Source of the DNA: Paragorgia papillata | Taxonomy: Eukaryota; Cnidaria; Anthozoa; Scleralcyonacea; Coralliidae | Assembly (NCBI GenBank): GCA_035771165.1 | Contig: JAWNZC010000372.1 | Location: forward strand, 1,521,501-1,585,500 | DNA length: 64,000 nucleotides | Direction: 5' to 3' | Shown: piece by piece, positions 18,142 to 64,000 of the stretch | Position numbering within the stretch: position 1 is the stretch's first letter | Layout of the letters: each line of letters opens with the position of its first letter | Translations under genes and position numbers: made by a program | The notes under the pieces: model-generated | Database searches by the model: none | What the model saw: the letters and a program-made list of their open reading frames with translations, nothing else | What the model was told of the DNA's origin: nothing

Positions 18142-19493
18142 GTAACTATTTTGTTTATTATTGCTTTGATTGTATTTTAATTTTGTCGTATTTACCAATT
18201 GCCAGTGATAATTACCAATTTTTAATGTGTTTTTATGAGATGCTCGCAAATTGTAAAAGGTAGAGCCGATATATATATATATATATATATATAGTTTTAG
18301 TATCAACCATAAACAACCTTTCTTTTACGTAAAAAAGTCTTATCAAACATTGTTCCAAATTTTCAGGTAGTTTTACCTTTTTGTTTGTAGAAGTCTCCCC
18401 ATTCGAAATGTAGAGTACTAGCTCGGTGTAGATATTCTCCATAGACATAAGCGAATTCATTTTCTTATTCGAAAATGTCAATTAACCAATTAAAAAATTA
18501 ATTAATTTTTAAAAAATTAATTAAAATTCTTCCAGACCTCTTGACAAATTTAATTTTGTCAATGTATTTGCTTCACTACAAATGTAAATTGCTATTAGTC
18601 AATGTTGGCAAATTCTCGGGCCATCCTAAATTTACCTGTCCTTTGTTTTATACTTTGTAGTACAGTAATGCAGATAAAATCAGTGATCTAGGACATGAAG
18701 GAGAGCACTGAACGAATTTATTATTATTATTTATTTTAAGTTCATTAACTATATATATATATATATATATATTGCATGCAATTTTAGCACTGGTTGACAA
18801 TTCACTTGTCCGTAAATATGTTATTTTAAATATTTTATGTATGTTTCATGTGTATATACAGTAGATCGACTTGATGTGAATAAGTTAATTTGATAACAAA
18901 CGTTTAATTACGAATTATTTCGACCTGTTTCCTACGTCGCATTCGATTGTCATATTTAATTTAGCCGAATTTAAATGTTTGCAGAAAACGAACAAAGATT
19001 TTTCCACAATGTCGAGACTACAAATACAAAAATTAATGTAAAAAATTAGTACTGGTAATTTGTGTGTTTAAATTGTGCAACGATACGTCACCATCTGAAA
19101 CCAACATGCCATTCGGACGTTGTGTCCGTCTGACCCTAATGGATACAACAACTTTAAATATTTAGACGAATTAAATCCTTGAGACGAATATAATTCGTTT
19201 TATACTTCGTATATAACCATCGTATTTATTTGAAGGCGGGGGTGATTTGCAGATTGCAGAACGAGAAAACTCGTTATTCGGAGGGTTAGGATCTTTGTTG
19301 TTTTGGGGACAATGCTAAAATAATGCCAATAATTTATTGGTTTCAACGTGCGGAAGGGCTGCTCCTAATATACTGTTCTGCTTCTGCAAATCACCCCCGC
19401 CGTTTACTTCATTGAATTAAATTTGTGTGAATTCAATGTGACGATTCTGCGACGTATGAACCAGGCTCGTATATAAACGTGAAATAAATATTC
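18142..19493. other. AT-rich non-coding stretch with (AT)n tracts
   Basis: Contains (AT)n at about 18,269-18,292 and 18,751-18,772 and an inverted AATTAATTTTT/AAAAATTAATT pair near 18,495-18,525. No gene is visible. Confidence 0.5.
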
Positions 19494-19657
19494 AAATCGA
19501 ATACTCTAAAAAGGTGTACTGCCGAAATATTGTGTAGGAGATATAACGTTTCGAGCGAAGGCCCTTCGTCAGGTCATTCTTTAGGGCCTTCGCTCGAAAC
19601 GTTAGACCTCCTCCACACTATTTCGGCAGTACACTAACCTTTTAGAGTATTCGATTT
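19494..19657. repeat. 160-bp palindrome with hammerhead-like core strings
   Basis: The outer arms AAATCGAATACTCTAAA and TTTAGAGTATTCGATTT pair, as do the inner arms (GTACTGCCGAAAT, AACGTTTCGAGCGAAGGCCC), leaving a loop near TTCGTCAGGTCATTC. On the minus strand the inner part reads CTGACGA...CGAAACGTT, resembling the conserved boxes of a hammerhead ribozyme, but the would-be stem II does not pair well. Probably derived from a Penelope/retrozyme-type terminal repeat. Confidence 0.6.
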
Positions 19658-19916
19658 GTATTTCTTCACTACCTACGCAGCAGAACACTTTTATATCACT
19701 CATTTCAAAATAAATATTGTAGCTCTGTACAAACTATATTTGCCTTGATTATTATTATTATTATGCGGCAAAGCCCTATATTATTTAAATTTACTTTAAC
19801 CATTTGACTTAAACTGACCTTTAGGCTATAACGCCAAATGATTTTGAACCGCCGTTTGAAAATTTCTTTTTATTACGCTACGTAAAACGTATAGTAACGT
19901 CAGTTATTATAAAAGG

Positions 19917-35307: not shown

Positions 35308-37552
35308 GGCGACCGAAGAGATTAAGCATGAAATAGGCAGGATGTTACAGGAAATTTACGTGACGATGAGCTGGACTACGTTAGTTTTCAACTTGAACGA
35401 GTGGAACGTATTTTATGCCTGTGTATGCAAGCAGTGGATGCTGATCCTAGTGTTGCTAGAGTGTTGTCATACATTTTTGAAGCTAAGCATTTAATAGTAT
35501 CAGAAAGGTGCAATGCATATTTGAACCAACAAGAGAGGGATCATAATAGTTTCCAGTCTGGAAAAGTGTTTGAAGGAGATCGTGGACGACCACAGTACAA
35601 CATAAGCAAGGAACAGTTGACCTATTTCATTGGTTTTGGTTTCAAAGCTACTCAAATAGCAGAAATGTTGGGAGTGAGCGAATCTACAGTAAGAAGGAGA
35701 CTTCGAGAGTATAACTTGTCAGCCAAAGATTATACCACTATTTCTGATGAAGCGCTGGATGAAACAGTTAGTGATATTAAGAACGATTTCCAGCAAAGTG
35801 GATACAGAATTGTAAAGGGACTTTTAAGAGCCAGGGGCATTTGTATTCCAGAGCGCCGTGTCTTGGAATCCTTGAGAAGAGTCGATCTTGAAGGAGTTAT
35901 AATGCGTTCTTTGCATCTTAAAACCATTCACAGAAGAAAGTATAAGGTGTATGGCCCCAATGCCCTTTGGCATATTGATACCAACCACAAACTTATTAGG
36001 TAAGACTTGAGTATTTGATTTTTTTCAATAAAGAATTTATGCTGTACATATTCTTGGTTAAGGGTTTGCAATTGACATCATGGTGGCCATGTTGGAGGGG
36101 AATTTAACAAAAGAATCTCATTAGTAGCTATTGTATTTGGAGTGTCTCCTAAATCTCAAGGGATTGATTGCAAACCACCAATAGGGCAATAGGTTCAAGG
36201 GTTTATTCAAATACTATTGCTTATCATATGTACTGTTCTCTAAAATCGTGAATTATAATAGTAATCGACTAATAGTAATAAATAATAATGGTAATAATAA
36301 CAGTAATAATAATGAAAATAATAATAGTAATATACAGTAATACACTAATACAGTAGTAATAATAATAGTAATTATTATATACAGTGGTAATATTAATTGT
36401 AAAAAAGCCATTATTACTAATAATGGCTTTTTTCTTATATCTTTCCAGATGGAGGCTTGTCATATTTGGTGGAATTGATGGGTTTTCCCGTACTATTGTT
36501 TTCCTCTCGTGTCACAACAACAATCGAGCTGATACTGGCCTTAATGAATTTCTAAAAGGTGTTGAAAAATATGGTCTTCCTAGTCGTGTGCGCACAGACC
36601 AAGGAGGAGAGAATGTTGAAATTGCAAAGTACATGTTAAGTCACCCTGATAGAGGCCAAGGCCGTGGAAGCCACATAACAGGCAAGAGTGTACACAACCA
36701 AAGGATTGAAAGATTGTGGCGAGACGTGTACCATGCCTGCACATTTAAATATTATTGGATGTTTGTGTTTATGGAAAATAGAGGAATTCTTGACATTAAC
36801 AACGATGTCCACCTTTTTTGTCTTCATTTTGTATTTATTCCTCGTATAAGAAAACATCTTTCAGATTTTTCAAATGGGTGGCAACACCATGGACTGTCAA
36901 CAGAAAAGGGAAAAACACCTATACAAATTTGGATTGAAGGGATGTTCAACTTGTCAAACAGCAATCATAGGGTGGCAAGAGAGTACTGGGAACCAACAAC
37001 AAATGTAAGTTATTGTCATGCTTGGTTGGTTATATATCACCTACAGTATTTCTATATATATGTGTATAATAATTACTAAAAGCCCAATCACACAAAATGA
37101 AATCAACTTGCCTTATTTTTATCAATTTTTTCTGACAATGAAGTGCATAAATGTAATATTATACTTCCAGTTCCAATCTGTTAAGCTAACCCAATCCTGT
37201 AATTTAAATCTAAACCAATTTTCTTGGTTGGCATATAAGAATAGTTACACTGAATTACACAGTTCGGCAACATTGAACTATAGCGATAGTAACTATAAAC
37301 CAAACTTTTACATTTCATATTCCACAGGATGAGTTAGCATCATATGGTATAGATTGGGATGGTCCAATACCATCACAACAATGGGGCAGTCAAGTCGATG
37401 ATGAAGGAATAACTGTGCCAGAAATTGTGTCAGCATTTCAAGATGATCCTGCACTGCAAAACTTGGAAAGGATGGTAAACCCACTGGGACAAACATCTAA
37501 CTATGGTATAGATCTATTTGAGCAGGCAGTTGCTATCGCATGTCAGACATAA
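35308..37552 (+). CDS. Integrase-core (DDE) transposase, IS3EU-like, three exons
   Basis: Exon 1 ends at 35999 (AG/GTAAGA), exon 2 is 36449-37004, exon 3 is 37328-37552 (TAA). Junctions keep the frame. Domains: an N-terminal helical part; a helix-turn-helix [20 protein letters not shown] at about 35,643-35,702; an HTH-linked connector ([20 protein letters not shown]); then the integrase core with [10 protein letters not shown] (first Asp), [19 protein letters not shown] (second Asp) and [11 protein letters not shown] (Glu), the last two 36 residues apart. A C-terminal acidic tail follows. Lesion: the first ATG (35308, [14 protein letters not shown]) is in a different frame; a one-base slip near 35,360 is needed, otherwise translation would start at the ATG at 35425 and give about 451 residues with the HTH and DDE intact. 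It should cut and join the element ends. Confidence 0.8.
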
Positions 37553-42000: not shown

Positions 42001-44085
42001 ACTATAATTTATGTGTTATGTAAATTGAGTTGTGACATAAGGACACAGCATTGTTGCAAAACGTAAAATCAGGCATATCTCCAGACTGGTTTGACTAAAC
42101 AGACTTGAACTTTGTAGACTTACTCAGTCATCAAAACTAAGCATTGTTCTTATTTGGTGTCCATAGTAACAGATTTGTTCCCAGCACACTTTATATAAAA
42201 ACATATGTTTTAATTTTTTTGTCATTACAGTTTTGTTTTATTTTTTTTATGTTGTGTCCATCTTGTGACATCACAGCTTAATACATAATGCGTAATAACT
42301 CAAGAATAGACTTCTGAGATATGAAAGATAATGTATGAAAGTAAATAATTATGTAAAAACCATTCATTACTTTACATATTCTTTCAAATACATTCATAAA
42401 AGAGGGGTGAATTTTCATTGCATAGGCACTTTAAATAATTAAACCACATTTTAAAGTGTCCTCTAGTAGACATGCTTCACAAGTCCATATAATAAACAAC
42501 ATGACATGTGCGCATTAAACATATAAATTATAAAGTAAACCTATGAACAAACATTCATACTGTAAAACGGAAAATTTTGAGACAATCTTTTAAATATCAG
42601 TAAGATTTTCAAAAAAATTTCGAGAACTAATGGAACAACATACTGTACAGTATGGCAACTATACCTGGGTTTTGGTCTTTAAAAATGACTGCAGGCAAAT
42701 CATCATCAGAGGACAAATCTGTATAAACATAAAAACAATAAAGTAAAATTATGATTGCAGTTTGTAAGTTGCTTCAAGTTTATATGTGGTTAAAAACAAA
42801 TTATTTTAAAGAGATAAAAACTAATGTTACCATGCATAGCCAGTTAGCCACTATTAAGTCTGAGTCTGAGGATATCACAGACTTTTAGTTTTGCTGTATT
42901 TAATGCTGTGTCACACTTTTGATATCATGACCAAAATTACATAAACAAAATGTCATATAATTATACACTGTTACTGGACAGTAGCAAAATGTCAGTATAT
43001 ATATATATATATAATATTTATTTATACTGTATACATATACACTGCAATTTTCAGTTTATCTTGGAGATAGATAGTTTTATTTAAAAGTTTGATCGTTGAA
43101 ATGCACAAGTTGCCAAGGGAAATTTGAAACATTGTCATGTGAGAATTTTCCTGATGTCATGGGCAAATTTAAAAGTTTGGGCAACACCTTAATTTCTATT
43201 GGTCAAAATGTGCAAACATGCAACTTTCCCATGGGAATGTGTCAAATTGTAAAATGATCAAACTTTCCAATAAAACTTCCGGTCTCCAAGCTCAACTGAA
43301 AACCATTTTTTATCATTTTCAGTGACAGTTCTAACTTTCAAATAATTTTCAAGTCATGCACATGTGAAACTTTGTCAAAACCAATACTTTTACAATTTTA
43401 AAGCTTTTCTTTACTAATACCTTCATCAATACAGCCTGCAAGTTTTGCAGCTGCTTTATTCACATCTCCACCAAAAGATGATAATATACGTTGCAAAGTT
43501 GAATCATCTTCATTTGGAAACATCTCCTTAAGCCTTCTCAAGTCCTGTACAATAATTATAAGCAATGTCATCTATCAAAAGTGTGTTTTAATTAAAAATA
43601 TAAAATTGCAATAAAAATAAATTGATATATATATATATATATATATAGTTCAATCTACAGACACGGTGTTTCGCTGTACAACAGCTCATCAGTGTAGCTT
43701 GGAACAATCTGAATGAATTTCACCAATTACTTATACACATGCGATCGTCGGTGACAACCGCATGTGGGAAAGCATCGGTGAAATACATTCAGATAGCGTG
43801 AAGTGCGCATGGGCCCAGAGTGCTCAAACTTCCACAAGGGTAGTGAGCGTTGCATTATCGCTAATAGGTACCCACGGCAACTTCACAGAGTGCTCAACAA
43901 CACCGAAGTGAAGGAGCGTACATAGTTCAATCTACAGACACGGTGTTTCGCTGTACAACAGCTCATCAGTGTAGCTTGGAACAATCTGAATGAATTTCAC
44001 CAATTACTTATACACATGCGATCGTCGGTGACAACCGCATGTGGGAAAGCATCGGTGAAATACATTCAGATAGCGTGAAGTGCGC

Positions 44086-44126
<41 letters not shown>

Positions 44127-46204
44127 TATACTGTACATATACACACATACATAATTATACATATACACTGACTGAATAGATTATATTACTGTACCTTGTT
44201 GCAGGTATCATCTGAGGTTTCTTTGTGATTATTAGTGGAACTATTCTCACAATGTGACAATGAAGGCTCCATACGTGAACTTTGACCACCATTACAGGAC
44301 AGTTCATGGCTTCGTAACAATGATATGGCAACAGTTTGCCCACAATTAAAGCAAGAAACAGCAGGAACACTTGCTAAATCCACTGTCTCTCCAGGCTATT
44401 TTAAAAACATTTAAATTTTATTTTTAAACAAACTTACATTTTTACAAAATAGATATACTACCAAATAGCATTGCTAACCTAAAGCACTAAGGTATTGATT
44501 TAAGTTTTTATAAGTATGTTGGTATAATTTTACAGATATGTATTTCTTAATGGTTGTATAATATTTGTGTAGTTTATTAAACAGCAAAATAATTACCCAA
44601 GAATAAATTTCACATACTGTATACAGTGTTGTAAATATACTGTAAAATATAATACAGAAACTAAATAAGAAGTAAAATTGAATTAAGTCATTTACAAATA
44701 AATAACTAGTAGATTCCAACATACTGTAGCCATGTTCCTTTAATTTTAAATAGAAATGTTCCACTATTTCTTTATTAAAAGCTGGTAATGATAAATTTCT
44801 TACATGCCCTGGTAATACAACTCCTGGTAATACAACTCCATTGTCTAACACCCATTCTAAGAGAGAATTCTTAGAATATTCTACATGTATAGTATATAGT
44901 AGGATAAAAAAAATCCATAGCAGAATATTTTCATGGTCTAGCCTCCTCCACAAGCAACTCTGTGTCTTCCCAGATGTATGAGCTGATTTATCTGAGCATT
45001 ATATATATATGGCTCTGCTAGCTACTGTAGCTGACATTACTGATTGACATGAGCTGGCATAGGCACCCTATGTATACTGGGGTTATAATTTTTAGTGTCT
45101 CCTTCCATTATGTCATCAACCCTTCTCAAATCCTATCTATTCCCCACAGTCACTTTTATAATATAATAATCAGCTCACACATATGGGAAGACAAGAGAGT
45201 TGCATGAGAGAAGGTAAGGGTTAAAAACTTTTCCAATCCTCACCTCCAGGATCAAATGAAACTTCTATTGCCACCTCCAAGATAACACTTCATACTTTTC
45301 TGTCCCCCCCCCCCACCCCCACACACACACACAAATACATGCACTAAAATGTGACACTCCTCATCATCTCTATTTAATATTAAAGGAGCTAATTTAAAAA
45401 CGGAAAATAAGCTATTAGACATGTCAACATTAACATAATTGTTGTACATTGTGTCATACAGTCAATGGCATTTGTTTTAGGTGGTTTTTTTTGTGATTTA
45501 TACACCCTAAGGTTAGTTCATTTACTTTTAAAATTGTTTTTAAAAATTGTTGATATAAAAAAAATTAAATTACTGTTTACCTTTGAAATTGGAGTTACGT
45601 CTAGATTGTTTTGCAAAGGTCTCACATAGCCAATTGCTTGTCCAAGGGTCTCTTTCAAATAAGGGACACTGTATCCCAAAGGTGGAATTGGAATTAATTC
45701 TAGCGTACGCCGGGTACCAGCTGATCGTAGTATTTCAAAGGCCCCGTCTACATCTTTAAGCTTCGGATACTCCGCCTCAAGTACAGATTTCACATGCAGC
45801 CACAAGCCTTTTTTATCAGCAAAGACTATCTTTTTTTCCCCAAGTCCCAAACTTGTTAACCGTCCTTTCTGATCTCTTGACGGAATTGTTTCTTGATATT
45901 TCTCTGCCATACATACAAATTGGTGAGTCCAAGATTCTTTTATTTTATACGGTTTCCAACGGGAAGAAGACGAAGCAGGTCTACTAGGCCTGTTTCGAAA
46001 AACAGGAAACAATTTAGGTAACTCAGTCAGTGTGGAAGGTGAAGGCCTTGAAAGTGAAACTGAATCAGTTGTTGAAACTCCACAATTTTGGCTTACACTG
46101 TTAATCGATGATTCGTTATCTTGGTGTAATGTATTCGTTAGAATATTAACCGCTTGATTAATCAAGTGCATTGCCCTGTCCCTTTTCTCGTTCGATTCCG
46201 CCAT
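39088..46204 (-). CDS. HECT-type E3 ubiquitin ligase with UBZ-like and CUE-like modules, seven exons
   Basis: Exons (minus strand): 46204-45581, 44395-44195, 43544-43421, 42718-42665, 41413-40911, 40315-39922, 39350-39088. All have GT-AG borders; the total is 2,163 bases, exactly 721 codons with no internal stop. Start ATG 46204 (MAESNEKRDRAMHLINQAVN). Exon 1: Ser/Pro-rich, then a globular part. Exon 2: CFNCGQTVAISLLRSHELSC, a CxxC...HxxxC UBZ4-like ubiquitin-binding finger. Exon 3: LKEMFPNEDDSTLQRILSSF, CUE-like. Exons 5-7: HECT N-lobe (RPVSINFEG, GIDAGGLTGEYF), E2-facing region, then the C-lobe with catalytic Cys in LLDADTCFLVLKLP near 39,180. A HECT enzyme takes ubiquitin from an E2 onto this Cys and passes it to a substrate. 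Within the transposon it is either a cargo gene or a helper; its target is unknown. An extra coding-like stretch in intron 1 (about 44,700-44,880) was left out. Confidence 0.85.
41487..41503. repeat. Poly-G tract
   Basis: A run of about 17 G in ligase intron 4, just upstream of exon 5 on the minus strand (so C-rich near the acceptor in the transcript). Confidence 0.8.
41875..42430. mobile_element. TTAA-site MITE, relative of the 14.2-kb element
   Basis: TTAA at 41871-41874 and 42431-42434. Ends AGTGTCTATAAAATGAAAAT and ATTTTCATTGCATAGGCACT form about 24 bases of inverted repeat. The first ten bases match the element at 14,213. It is 556 bp, non-coding, in ligase intron 4. Confidence 0.8.
43626..43647. 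repeat. (TA)n microsatellite at the retrozyme edge
   Basis: An AT run that ends exactly where the hammerhead repeat starts. A second run (44,086-44,102, followed by a CA run to about 44,126) begins where the repeat stops. Confidence 0.85.
43655..43697 (-). ncRNA. Type I hammerhead ribozyme, unit 1
   Basis: On the minus strand: stem I CTACA with TGTAG; core box CTGATGA (43,692-43,686); stem II GCTGT-TGT-ACAGC, all five pairs; core box GAAA (43,72-69 in the same count, that is 43,672-43,669); a three-pair stem III with loop CCG inside ACACCGTGT; cleavage-site C at 43,660 in the context GTC. All conserved core positions are present. The very short stem III is typical of the Penelope/retrozyme class and often needs a dimer to act. 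Confidence 0.88.
43932..43974 (-). ncRNA. Type I hammerhead ribozyme, unit 2
   Basis: Same sequence as unit 1, 277 bases further on, with stems I, II and III and both core boxes intact. Having two ribozymes in tandem means a transcript could in principle be cut at both and release a 277-base monomer. Confidence 0.88.
44396..45580 (-). other. HECT gene intron 1 with a coding-like stretch and CA/C tracts
   Basis: Minus-strand frame at about 44,880-44,700 reads VLDNGVVLPG, HVRNLSLPAFNKEIVEHFYL and KLKEHGYSMLE, which looks like real protein. It contains an internal 15-base duplication (TTGTATTACCAGGAG). The exons on both sides join in phase without it, so it is either an optional exon or a trapped fragment. 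A C/CA tract is at about 45,304-45,334. Confidence 0.35.
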
Positions 46205-46269: not shown

Positions 46270-46587
46270 CTTGAGGTGTGCAATCGGCTTGAGGTGTGCA
46301 GACAACATTAGGTGTGTAAAGGTGTGCAGTCGACGGCTTGAGGTGTGCAGACAACATTAGGTGTGTAAAGGTGTGCAGTCGTTGGCTTGAGGTGTGCAGA
46401 CAACATTAGGTGTGTAAATTTGGATCGTATATAATAACATGTTTGAAGGGCATAATAGCATGTTCAAATATCATCATAGCATGTTCAAATATCATAATAG
46501 CATGTTCAAATATCATAATAGCATGTTCAAATATCATAATGACAAGTGCACACCCAATGTCATTTTTGACAGGGAAACCGCTTCATA
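46270..46587 (-). repeat. Right terminal inverted repeat of the transposon
   Basis: Inverted counterpart of the left end, with the same outer 45 bases, the same 21-base units, and one extra CTGCACACC/TTTACACACC block compared with the left end. Differences between the arms are few in the outer 140 bases, suggesting the element is fairly young. Confidence 0.85.
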
Positions 46588-61944: not shown

Positions 61945-62550
61945 CCCTTAGACATAGCGGGACTTTTCTATGGAATTCATTTGACAAATCAATTACTCAA
62001 TCCAAATCTTTAAAACTATTTCAGAATAATCTAAAATCACTATTATTCACAATACTCAATTAGGACCGATCTTCAAATAGAATCTATATCATATACTCAC
62101 GTATCATCATGACTTCTATGCTCCCCATCAGGTACATGGTGATTGGTTTTGAAACTCGAAAGAGTTTGTAAAAAACACCATTTATACCAAATATCCAATA
62201 AATATATATTTCTTACAGATAACATTACATAAGAACATATACTGTATATATGTGTGTGTGTGTAGGTATACACATTGTATCTGTAATTTAACTTAATTAA
62301 CCCGCATCAATAATATTATCTGTAATTAATACTAACTACTAATATTTCACATGTAATTATGGTATGATAAATTAAATGATTGATTGATTGATTGATACAT
62401 ACATACATACACACACATACACACACACATACATATACATATATATATATATATATATATAAACAGATAAACCAGATTTTGTTGCGTATAGCTCAAAGAG
62501 TGCTCGATACTTTTTGGTAGAGCGGATATGTATTCAGTTTTAAGTGAATA
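61945..62550. other. Non-coding stretch with TG, CA and AT microsatellites
   Basis: Includes GTGTGTGTGTG near 62,251, a GATTGATTGATTGATACATACATACA tract, an ACACAC run and (AT)n at about 62,440-62,462. At 62,475-62,550 lies sequence (TCAAAGAGTGCTCGATAC) that may belong to the hammerhead element that follows. Confidence 0.5.
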
Positions 62551-62742
62551 CCCTTGTGGAAGTTTGAGCACTCTGGGCCCATGCGCACTTCACGCTATCT
62601 GAATGTACTTCACCGATGCTGTCCCACATGCGGTTGTCGCCGACGATCGCATGTGTATAAGTAATTGATGAAATTCATTCAGATTGTTCCAAGCTACACT
62701 GATGAGCTGTTGTACAGCGAAACACCGTGTCTGTAGATTGAA
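62551..62742 (+). mobile_element. Retrozyme-like copy, plus strand, partial
   Basis: From ACCCTTGTGGAAGTTTGAGC to the AT run at 62,743 it matches the reverse complement of the 43.6-kb repeat, including GCACTCTGGGCCCATGCGCA and the hammerhead. Upstream of 62,550 the two diverge, so this is about 190 of the 277 bases. It abuts the 3' end of the Penelope-like element through a shared AT run. Confidence 0.8.
62694..62736 (+). ncRNA. Type I hammerhead ribozyme, third copy
   Basis: Stem I CTACA (62,694-62,698) and TGTAG (62,732-62,736); CTGATGA (62,699-62,705); stem II GCTGT-TGT-ACAGC; GAAA (62,719-62,722); stem III inside ACACCGTGT; cleavage after C 62,731. Identical in core and stems to the two copies at 43.6 and 43.9 kb. 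Confidence 0.88.
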
Positions 62743-64000
62743 CTATATATATATATATATATAGTTAAATCAGTAGTCGTAAGACAGGAACATTTAAAAC
62801 ATTTTGACATTTCGGGCACAGCCCCTTCTTCAGAAAAGCATATGATATATCTAACAGTCTGCTTTTATAGGCTTAAACTAGAATAAATTAAAATCACATA
62901 AGTTCAATCCTTTGGGAACAAATGTGTTCAATTTAAAAGTCCAGAACGCTTCTCTTTCGGTAGGATTAGAATAATTAGTTTTATCAATAATATTTACACA
63001 CTCATGACCTGCACTAAAAAAGTGTGCATACAAATGTTCTCCCGGCATACCACGTTGACCCCTTCCGTATCGGTTCAAACTGCTTTTGTGATTGTTAAAT
63101 CACGTACGGAATGAATTAATGGTACTGCCAACATAAGATTTGTTGCACCTTTTACAGTTTAAAAGATAAATAATAGATAAGGAATGACAATTGAATCCAT
63201 AATTAATATAATATATGCGTTTAGCATCCGAGTCCTGAAAGGTATGCACACCAGCGACCAATTTGCATATTTGACATCGCAATTTACCACAAGGTTGCAT
63301 TCCCCTAGGGCCGGAATTCAATTGAATGGGTGTAGGAATTTTTGCCTTAATTAAATGATCTTTAAGGTTTTTAGGTCTATGGAAAGAAACAAATGGTGCT
63401 AACGTAAAAGCATTCTTAGTAGAAGAACTACCTAATAATATTGGAAATAAATCATTAATAACACGTGAAGCTTTAGACAGAGAGGGATGAAAATCCAAAA
63501 TTAAAGGACTGACACGCTGTCTATTAGCACTCGCCGGTTTTCTAGCGAGTGCCTCCGAGCGAGAAATACGTTGAGCCCTAAAAATTTGTTTATCCAAAAA
63601 ATTATTCTTATAACCTTTCTTTAAAAACCATGTTTTCATCTCTCTCGTTCTAGCTTTGAAATCTTCTTGATTTTTGCATATGCGTCTAATACGTAAAGCT
63701 TGAATATAAGGAATCGCACGTTTGACATGATTAGGATGACAAGACCTCCTACCAAGATATTGATGGGTGTCCGTCTGTTTACAATATAAATCAGTCAAAA
63801 TAGAGCCTCCCGATAAAAATATAGATACGTAAAAAAATGCCACAGAATGATCAGAGACACTCCGTGTAAATTTAATGGTATCATGAAAAGAATTGAGAGC
63901 AATGAGAAATTGATCTAAAAGATCCCGGTCATATGTCCAAATCATAAAAATGTCATCTAGAAAATGTTTCCAAAACCACGGATCGTTGCGGAAATAATTC
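62743..64000 (-). mobile_element. Penelope-like element, 3' part, runs off the window
   Basis: Minus-strand element containing the end of a reverse transcriptase and a GIY-YIG endonuclease (described below), then about 100 bases of 3' flank with a hammerhead-like string on the minus strand at 62,833-62,806 (CTGAAGAAGGGGCTGTGCCC, then GAAATGTC). In that string one core base is changed and the stem II fit is imperfect. It ends at the AT run at 62,743-62,763. The rest of the element lies beyond base 64,000. Confidence 0.8.
62881..64000 (-). pseudogene. Penelope-like reverse transcriptase / GIY-YIG endonuclease
   Basis: Reading down from 64,000: WKHFLDDIFMIW holds the RT catalytic Asp pair (about 63,950), then STDLY-like SILTDLYCKQTDTHQYLGR, SCHPNHVKRAIPYIQALR, a basic linker, and RGMQPCGKLRCQIC, a cysteine-rich knuckle. 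The GIY-YIG domain follows: IIYLLNCKRCNKSYVGST, SFRT, an in-frame TGA at about 63,099 in place of Arg, then NNHKSSLNRYGRGQRG, EHLYAHFFSAGH and a stop near 62,881. Penelope-like elements copy their RNA with the RT and cut DNA with the GIY-YIG domain. The TGA inactivates this copy. Such enzymes are the suspected helpers of retrozymes, and one lies next door here. Confidence 0.88.

Follow-up and report, generated by a model that had tools for sequence, protein, structure and literature searches.

It is an open question which enzyme copies animal retrozymes and which template it uses, and the junctions of a single family speak to it directly. Such a family is represented in the window, the whole stretch of 64,000 nucleotides of Paragorgia papillata DNA analysed here, by an insertion on the minus strand at 43648..44087. 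Animal non-LTR retrozymes have been described before, together with their circles and the Penelope hypothesis (parts of PMC7229834 and PMC7761336 drawn on here). Penelope-like elements were named in those 2020 papers, in the same parts, as candidate mobilisers, because the two kinds of element share hammerheads and a tandem arrangement and occur together. Junction evidence, comprising a single start near the ribozyme, a TA target, many end points and the ends of co-resident Penelope-like elements, makes the question of mobiliser and template testable.

The insertion and its hammerheads

The insertion consists of 1.6 units of 277 bp, with its 3' end, GATTGAAC, at 43655-43648 and its 5' end at 44087. 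Direct copies of 169 nt at 43642-43810 (its initial 6 nt being TA repeat) and 43919-44087 are 99.4 % identical. Of the original prediction of two units at a spacing of 277, the spacing stood and the two full units did not, since the repeated part is 169 nt long. Both copies contain a full type I core, CTGATGA-GCTGTTGTACAGC-GAA-ACACCGTGT-C, on the minus strand, with a predicted cut before TGTAG. Hammerhead 1 lies at 43648..43705 (minus, core at 43692), its stem I formed by GUUC/GAAC and CUACA/UGUAG, the outer GUUC/GAAC read by eye, and hammerhead 2 at 43925..43982 (minus, core at 43969). The 277-nt monomer between the predicted cleavage sites 43937/43936 and 43660/43659 would thus correspond to 43660..43936 on the minus strand.

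A strict hammerhead descriptor, demanding the core and minimum lengths of 4 bp for helix II, 3 bp for helix III and 5 bp for helix I, gave three matches in the 64-kb window (43692 and 43969, minus; 62699, plus), compared with none in 300 order-1 Markov randomisations. A complete type I hammerhead was therefore present in each copy, as originally predicted. The Rfam search of the window gave no retrozyme hammerhead match at gathering scores, the best model on the element being Hammerhead_HH9 (16.6 bits, E 0.058, against a cut-off of 52), and the identification consequently rests on the core and the helices. Matches to miRNA and snoRNA models in the window were set aside, as all were below gathering scores and lay on repeats or a hairpin. 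A scan for the hammerhead core gave no match in a set of viral contigs from which records close to the genome of the window may be absent.

The 277-nt unit has a GC content of 46.9 %. The longest ATG/GTG/TTG frame overlapping it has 54 amino acids and extends into the flank, in agreement with the expectation of a unit without an ORF. The RNA of the unit, in a frame one base off the monomer, was predicted to fold with -104.6 kcal/mol (z -6.5), and none of 200 shuffled sequences was as stable. The AT runs expected at both edges are TA runs, at 43625..43647 at the 3' end, as read from the sequence, and at 44086..44102 at the 5' end, where the two initial bases are common to the element and (CA)n comes next. 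With its type I core, a dispersed tandem unit within the range of 150-450 bp, non-coding sequence with GC below 50 % and strongly self-paired RNA, the element is, judged from its sequence, an animal non-LTR retrozyme, a kind already known.

The insertion is located in a 650-bp intron (43545..44194, minus) of a HECT/CUE gene, with GT..AG ends (GTACAG...TTGTACAG). The exon after the intron gave a CUE match (E 3.5e-05), and a HECT match (E 4.1e-11) came from the exons beyond it, which were joined manually. Both the ribozymes and the gene are on the minus strand, so that the hammerheads are in sense with the ligase gene, as had been proposed. A gene with an integrase core (PF24764) is found at 35332-37079 on the plus strand, opposite to the nearby HECT gene, and tandem repeats of 49 and 21 bp occur at 46285-46418 and 46451-46540, near the 5' part of the latter.

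The genomic family and conservation of the core

The genome (617.9 Mb in 473 contigs) was searched with a 440-base query, and the best 40 of 392 candidates were scored. The search for the unit suggested with the original prediction revealed a dispersed family, 126 best matches being merged into 40 arrays, among which short or old copies are under-represented because the arrays are the best-scoring candidates for a query of 440 bases. Four arrays (L011, L034, L027 and L046) were left out as segmental duplicates, giving 36 independent arrays of 1.61 to 25.75 units.

In these 36 arrays, with matches allowing up to 6 edits, the core motif was intact in 148 of 151 hammerheads, a count taken from the best-scoring arrays and from which more decayed hammerheads would escape through the edit limit. 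Core changes in most genomic copies, which would have spoken against the prediction, were thus not observed. Compensatory changes in the unit RNA were sought, and at paired columns the variants changed one side alone or broke the pair; the exception was L013, the divergent unit of which has two double changes preserving pairing (61/129 and 64/126).

Insertion ends

The 3' ends of the arrays fall on one base, 12 nt past the cut site, in 39 of 40 arrays (35 of 36 without segmental duplicates). As read from the printed ends, the common 3' end is GATTGAAC, either exactly or with one base changed, followed by TA repeats; the sole exception, L036, stops 10 nt earlier, likewise in a TA run. A run of at least 8 alternating T/A directly follows the 3' end in 33 of the 36 arrays, the run being slightly broken in L022 and L038 and L036 having been misread by the script.

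The 5' ends, on the other hand, fall on 32 distinct points of the circle, with the poorly mapped L013 as an extra one. At least 8 nt of TA adjoin the 5' side in 23 of 36 arrays and fewer than 8 nt in the other 13. Without L013, the 5' ends were distributed non-uniformly, 19 of 32 falling into the same quarter of the circle (KS test, P 0.007), and the 23 distinct 5' joints flanked by TA had on average 1.22 nt of TA microhomology, compared with 0.68 nt in simulations (P 0.006). Any target site duplication would be hidden by the TA runs present on both sides of most arrays.

A fixed 3' end, a free 5' end and non-integer numbers of laps are the footprint of primed reverse transcription lapping a circular or multimeric RNA. 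Of the movement by retrotransposition envisaged originally, the reverse transcription is thus supported by the common 3' end together with the scattered 5' ends. A satellite spreading at the DNA level, by unequal exchange, extrachromosomal circles or recombination at TA repeats and with the ribozyme as a passenger, would also produce tandem arrays of similar units, and the 11-unit periodicity of one array (L020, see below) is of the kind that it would leave. Such spread is not expected to fix one end, leave the other free and yield non-integer lap numbers, since DNA circles would open randomly at both sides and here the 5' side alone is free; a neutral passenger should, moreover, have more decayed cores than 3 in 151. 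We consider this origin extremely improbable.

Array-wide variants and the template

The distribution of variants among units was analysed with L013 and the four segmental duplicates left out. In 13 of the 23 arrays with at least two full units, some variant was present in every full unit. The mean difference between units was 1.45 within an array and 2.16 between arrays, compared with 2.51 in label permutations, none of 2000 of which was as low. An alternative comparison limited to units of 250-300 nt (1.15 within arrays versus 3.96) is dominated by L020 and L013, and the values of 1.45 and 2.16 are preferred. Six variants, at alignment columns 12, 34, 62, 89, 99 and 209, were array-wide in a single array only, column 62 also varying in one unit of L035. 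Other array-wide variants are common to several arrays: column 159 in L016, L040 and L048, column 220 in L020 and L043, and column 222 in L036 and L037. L030 mixes two unit types (units 1, 2 and 4 versus units 3, 5 and 6), and in L020 (C88:2548030-2555118), with 25.75 units, single-unit variants recur at 11-unit steps, as after an 11-unit duplication. The mixed units of L030 and the variants repeated every 11 units in L020 indicate that later exchange also shaped the arrays.

Array-wide variants fit the use of one circular template per insertion, and also the copying of an already homogeneous array. In the latter case a Penelope-type enzyme would reverse transcribe long, uncut multimeric transcripts of arrays, and the ribozyme would be dispensable for copying. 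The variants shared by several arrays (columns 159, 220 and 222) are expected from whole-array copying and the mixed unit types of L030 are in line with it, as is the use of unprocessed RNA and the tolerance of hammerhead mutants by an anole enzyme (PMC11167929). The six variants that are array-wide in one array only, column 62 with the qualification given above, argue against it, as does the retention of the core in 148 of 151 hammerheads, which suggests that the ribozyme is used. Copying of uncut multimers is accordingly regarded as rather unlikely, and a circular template is favoured, not proven.

The second copy and the Penelope-like element

A second, single-lap copy of the retrozyme is present in the window at 62549..62743 on the plus strand (core at 62699, predicted cut at 62731/62732), with the 3' end GATTGAAC followed by a TA run. 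It adjoins, 5' to 5', a putative remnant in the opposite orientation (62462..62548, minus), hereafter called element X, the supposed 3' end of which is marked by a TA run (62440-62461). The identity and orientation of element X we infer from two features, a TTGAGCACTCT-like box and the TA run. A reading of the copy at 62.4-62.7 kb as a variant with a different 5' half was rejected, the foreign part being better read as an opposite-orientation element with its own TA run.

On its 3' side the second copy is joined, tail to tail through a TA run of 20 bp (62744..62763), to the 3' part of a Penelope-like element (62764..64000, minus), which has an in-frame stop at 63100, continues past the end of the window and ends in the tail GATTTAAC at 62771-62764. 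A minimal hammerhead-like motif, CTGAAGAAGGGGC..GCCCGAAATGTC, is found in it at 62806..62833 (minus). The ORF has 171 homologous proteins at E up to 0.001, and among the at least 120 homologues listed many are annotated with PF26215 and several also with RT (PF00078) and GIY-YIG (PF01541) domains. The name Penelope-like rests on these homologues, as Pfam gave no family for the ORF of the window at E up to 0.01; no solved structure matched the piece in the window at E up to 1.

The ends of Penelope-like copies were read in the best 30 of 43 matches. Among these, three of the four copies of the subfamily of the window that reach the hammerhead (L049, L050 and L059) end in GATTTAAC(TA)n, and the fourth, L053, departs from the common sequence before GATTTAAC, without a TA run. 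In L051 and L052 similarity stops next to a short TA run, before the hammerhead is reached. In a second subfamily the TA run begins 32-38 nt from the end of the motif in seven copies and 84 nt from it in two, L064 and L065 looking like one duplicated copy, and in two further motifs the distance is 0 and 51 nt. Altogether, a TA run occurs within 160 nt after 14 of 18 distinct Penelope-type hammerhead motifs in the best 30 of 43 matches, L053, L056, L075 and L078 having none by the rule of the script. The tails GATTTAAC and GATTGAAC are alike at 7 of 8 bases, for which a random 8-mer of the window gives 6e-4, a value for a likeness noticed before it was tested. The Penelope-type footprint, a fixed internal start of reverse transcription downstream of a hammerhead and an AT-rich target, is therefore found in the retrozyme, and in the Penelope-like copies at the 14 of 18 motifs.

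LINE-driven elements, too, typically have a fixed 3' end together with 5' ends that vary, and further reverse transcriptase genes (PF00078) are present in the window; both points would favour mobilisation by a LINE-type enzyme. In this genome, however, the TA runs at the ends of Penelope-like copies are closely preceded by a hammerhead motif, and a LINE-type mobiliser is considered very unlikely.

Other hammerhead-like sequences were observed in the flanks of the arrays, several of them ending in TA runs. A second hammerhead-like family (CTGATGATCCCGTTTAGGGTGAAACCTCTGGTA, then GCGAAGAC) occurs at L010, L017, L018, L029, L031, L041, L058, L069 and L077 and, by eye, ends in TA runs at two sites; it was found with a looser pattern and fails a tighter one through a weak helix II. 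Further families are present at L041, L047, L061 and L068, and the downstream sequence runs into TA repeats at L041, L047 and L068. At the centre of a palindromic stretch at 19450-19700 (minus) lies CTGACGAAGGGCCTTCGCTCGAAACGTTA, a Penelope-type hammerhead-like motif that also flanks arrays L043 and L044. A box T[TC]GAGCACTCT is located near 43827 and 43897 (minus), 62507 (minus) and 62564 (plus) in the window, and in L050, L058, L061, L068, L069 and L077, the sequences of the elements otherwise differing.

Proposed mechanism

The explanation which we prefer, and consider probable, is that of a 277-nt non-autonomous retrozyme, the cut monomers of which, probably circularised, are copied into (TA)n from a fixed site by a Penelope-like RT/endonuclease. 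Array transcripts would be cut by their hammerheads into monomers, which a host RNA ligase, to judge from the literature, would probably close to circles. After nicking a (TA)n tract, the Penelope-like RT/endonuclease would begin cDNA synthesis at an invariant position within the RNA, 12 nt beyond the hammerhead cut, and lap the circle for less than one to many rounds. At whatever point copying had ended, the cDNA would be reattached to the target DNA, in many cases through TA microhomology of 1-3 nt. As the retrozyme has no long ORF, and so no RT/GIY-YIG protein of its own, it could act like a Penelope-like element only in trans, and the Penelope-like element near the second copy is a likely engine. 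The mobilisation of retrozymes by Penelope elements, proposed earlier from shared features and co-existence, is supported here by junctions. In the open-licence literature of PubMed Central, no fixed 3' start in TA repeats, match to the ends of co-resident Penelope-like elements or array-wide variants were found described for retrozymes.

A more far-reaching version, put forward tentatively and with somewhat more doubt than belief, is rolling-circle, target-primed reverse transcription of a ribozyme-made circle at (TA)n by a Penelope-type enzyme, which would go round it for less than one to several laps, with copying on both strands. As either strand of (TA)n provides an identical primer, one element could be copied in from each strand and the two joined 5' to 5', and the 5'-to-5' joint at 62549 may then have arisen by two-strand copying. 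The pseudo-LTR tandems of Penelope-like elements would likewise result from lapping of their own hammerhead circles, and retrozymes would be miniature Penelope satellites.

Comparison with known systems

The preferred explanation can be compared with data on a purified Penelope-like protein, that of the green anole element PAc (Frangieh 2024, PMC11167929). This enzyme starts reverse transcription internally, at two adjacent sites downstream of the hammerhead. It has a preference for AT-rich DNA, both strands of which it cuts and extends. Uncut RNA was its main substrate in vitro and hammerhead mutants were still inserted, so that neither cleavage nor circles need be required. PAc resembles the present family in the hammerhead upstream of an internal RT start, the AT-rich target, its two start sites and a tail signature at the insertion ends. 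It differs in being protein-coding, which the retrozyme is not, and in starting about 85-92 nt past the cut rather than 12 nt (PMC11167929). The Penelope elements of the rotifer Adineta vaga share a preference for simple AT-rich targets, microhomology at a 5' junction and inverted arrangements with the retrozyme; they are coding, and a hammerhead is unmentioned in the part of that description drawn on here (PMC3846280).

The animal non-LTR retrozymes of coral, mussel and axolotl (Cervera and de la Pena 2020, PMC7229834) are described, in the sections used, with type I hammerheads and with dispersed, tandemly arranged units of 150-450 bp that have a GC content below 50 % and give strongly self-paired RNA, all of which applies to the present family. 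Target duplications are mentioned 'when present' in those sections, whereas here insertion is into TA repeats with one fixed 3' site, and the evidence for the mobiliser is there the shared hammerheads, tandem arrangement and co-existence, here the junctions. Plant LTR retrozymes, as far as they are described in the portions of PMC7229834 and PMC7761336 cited, likewise have a unit bordered by hammerheads that gives rise to circular RNA, but their hammerheads are of type III and are accompanied by LTRs, a PBS, a PPT and 4-bp target duplications.
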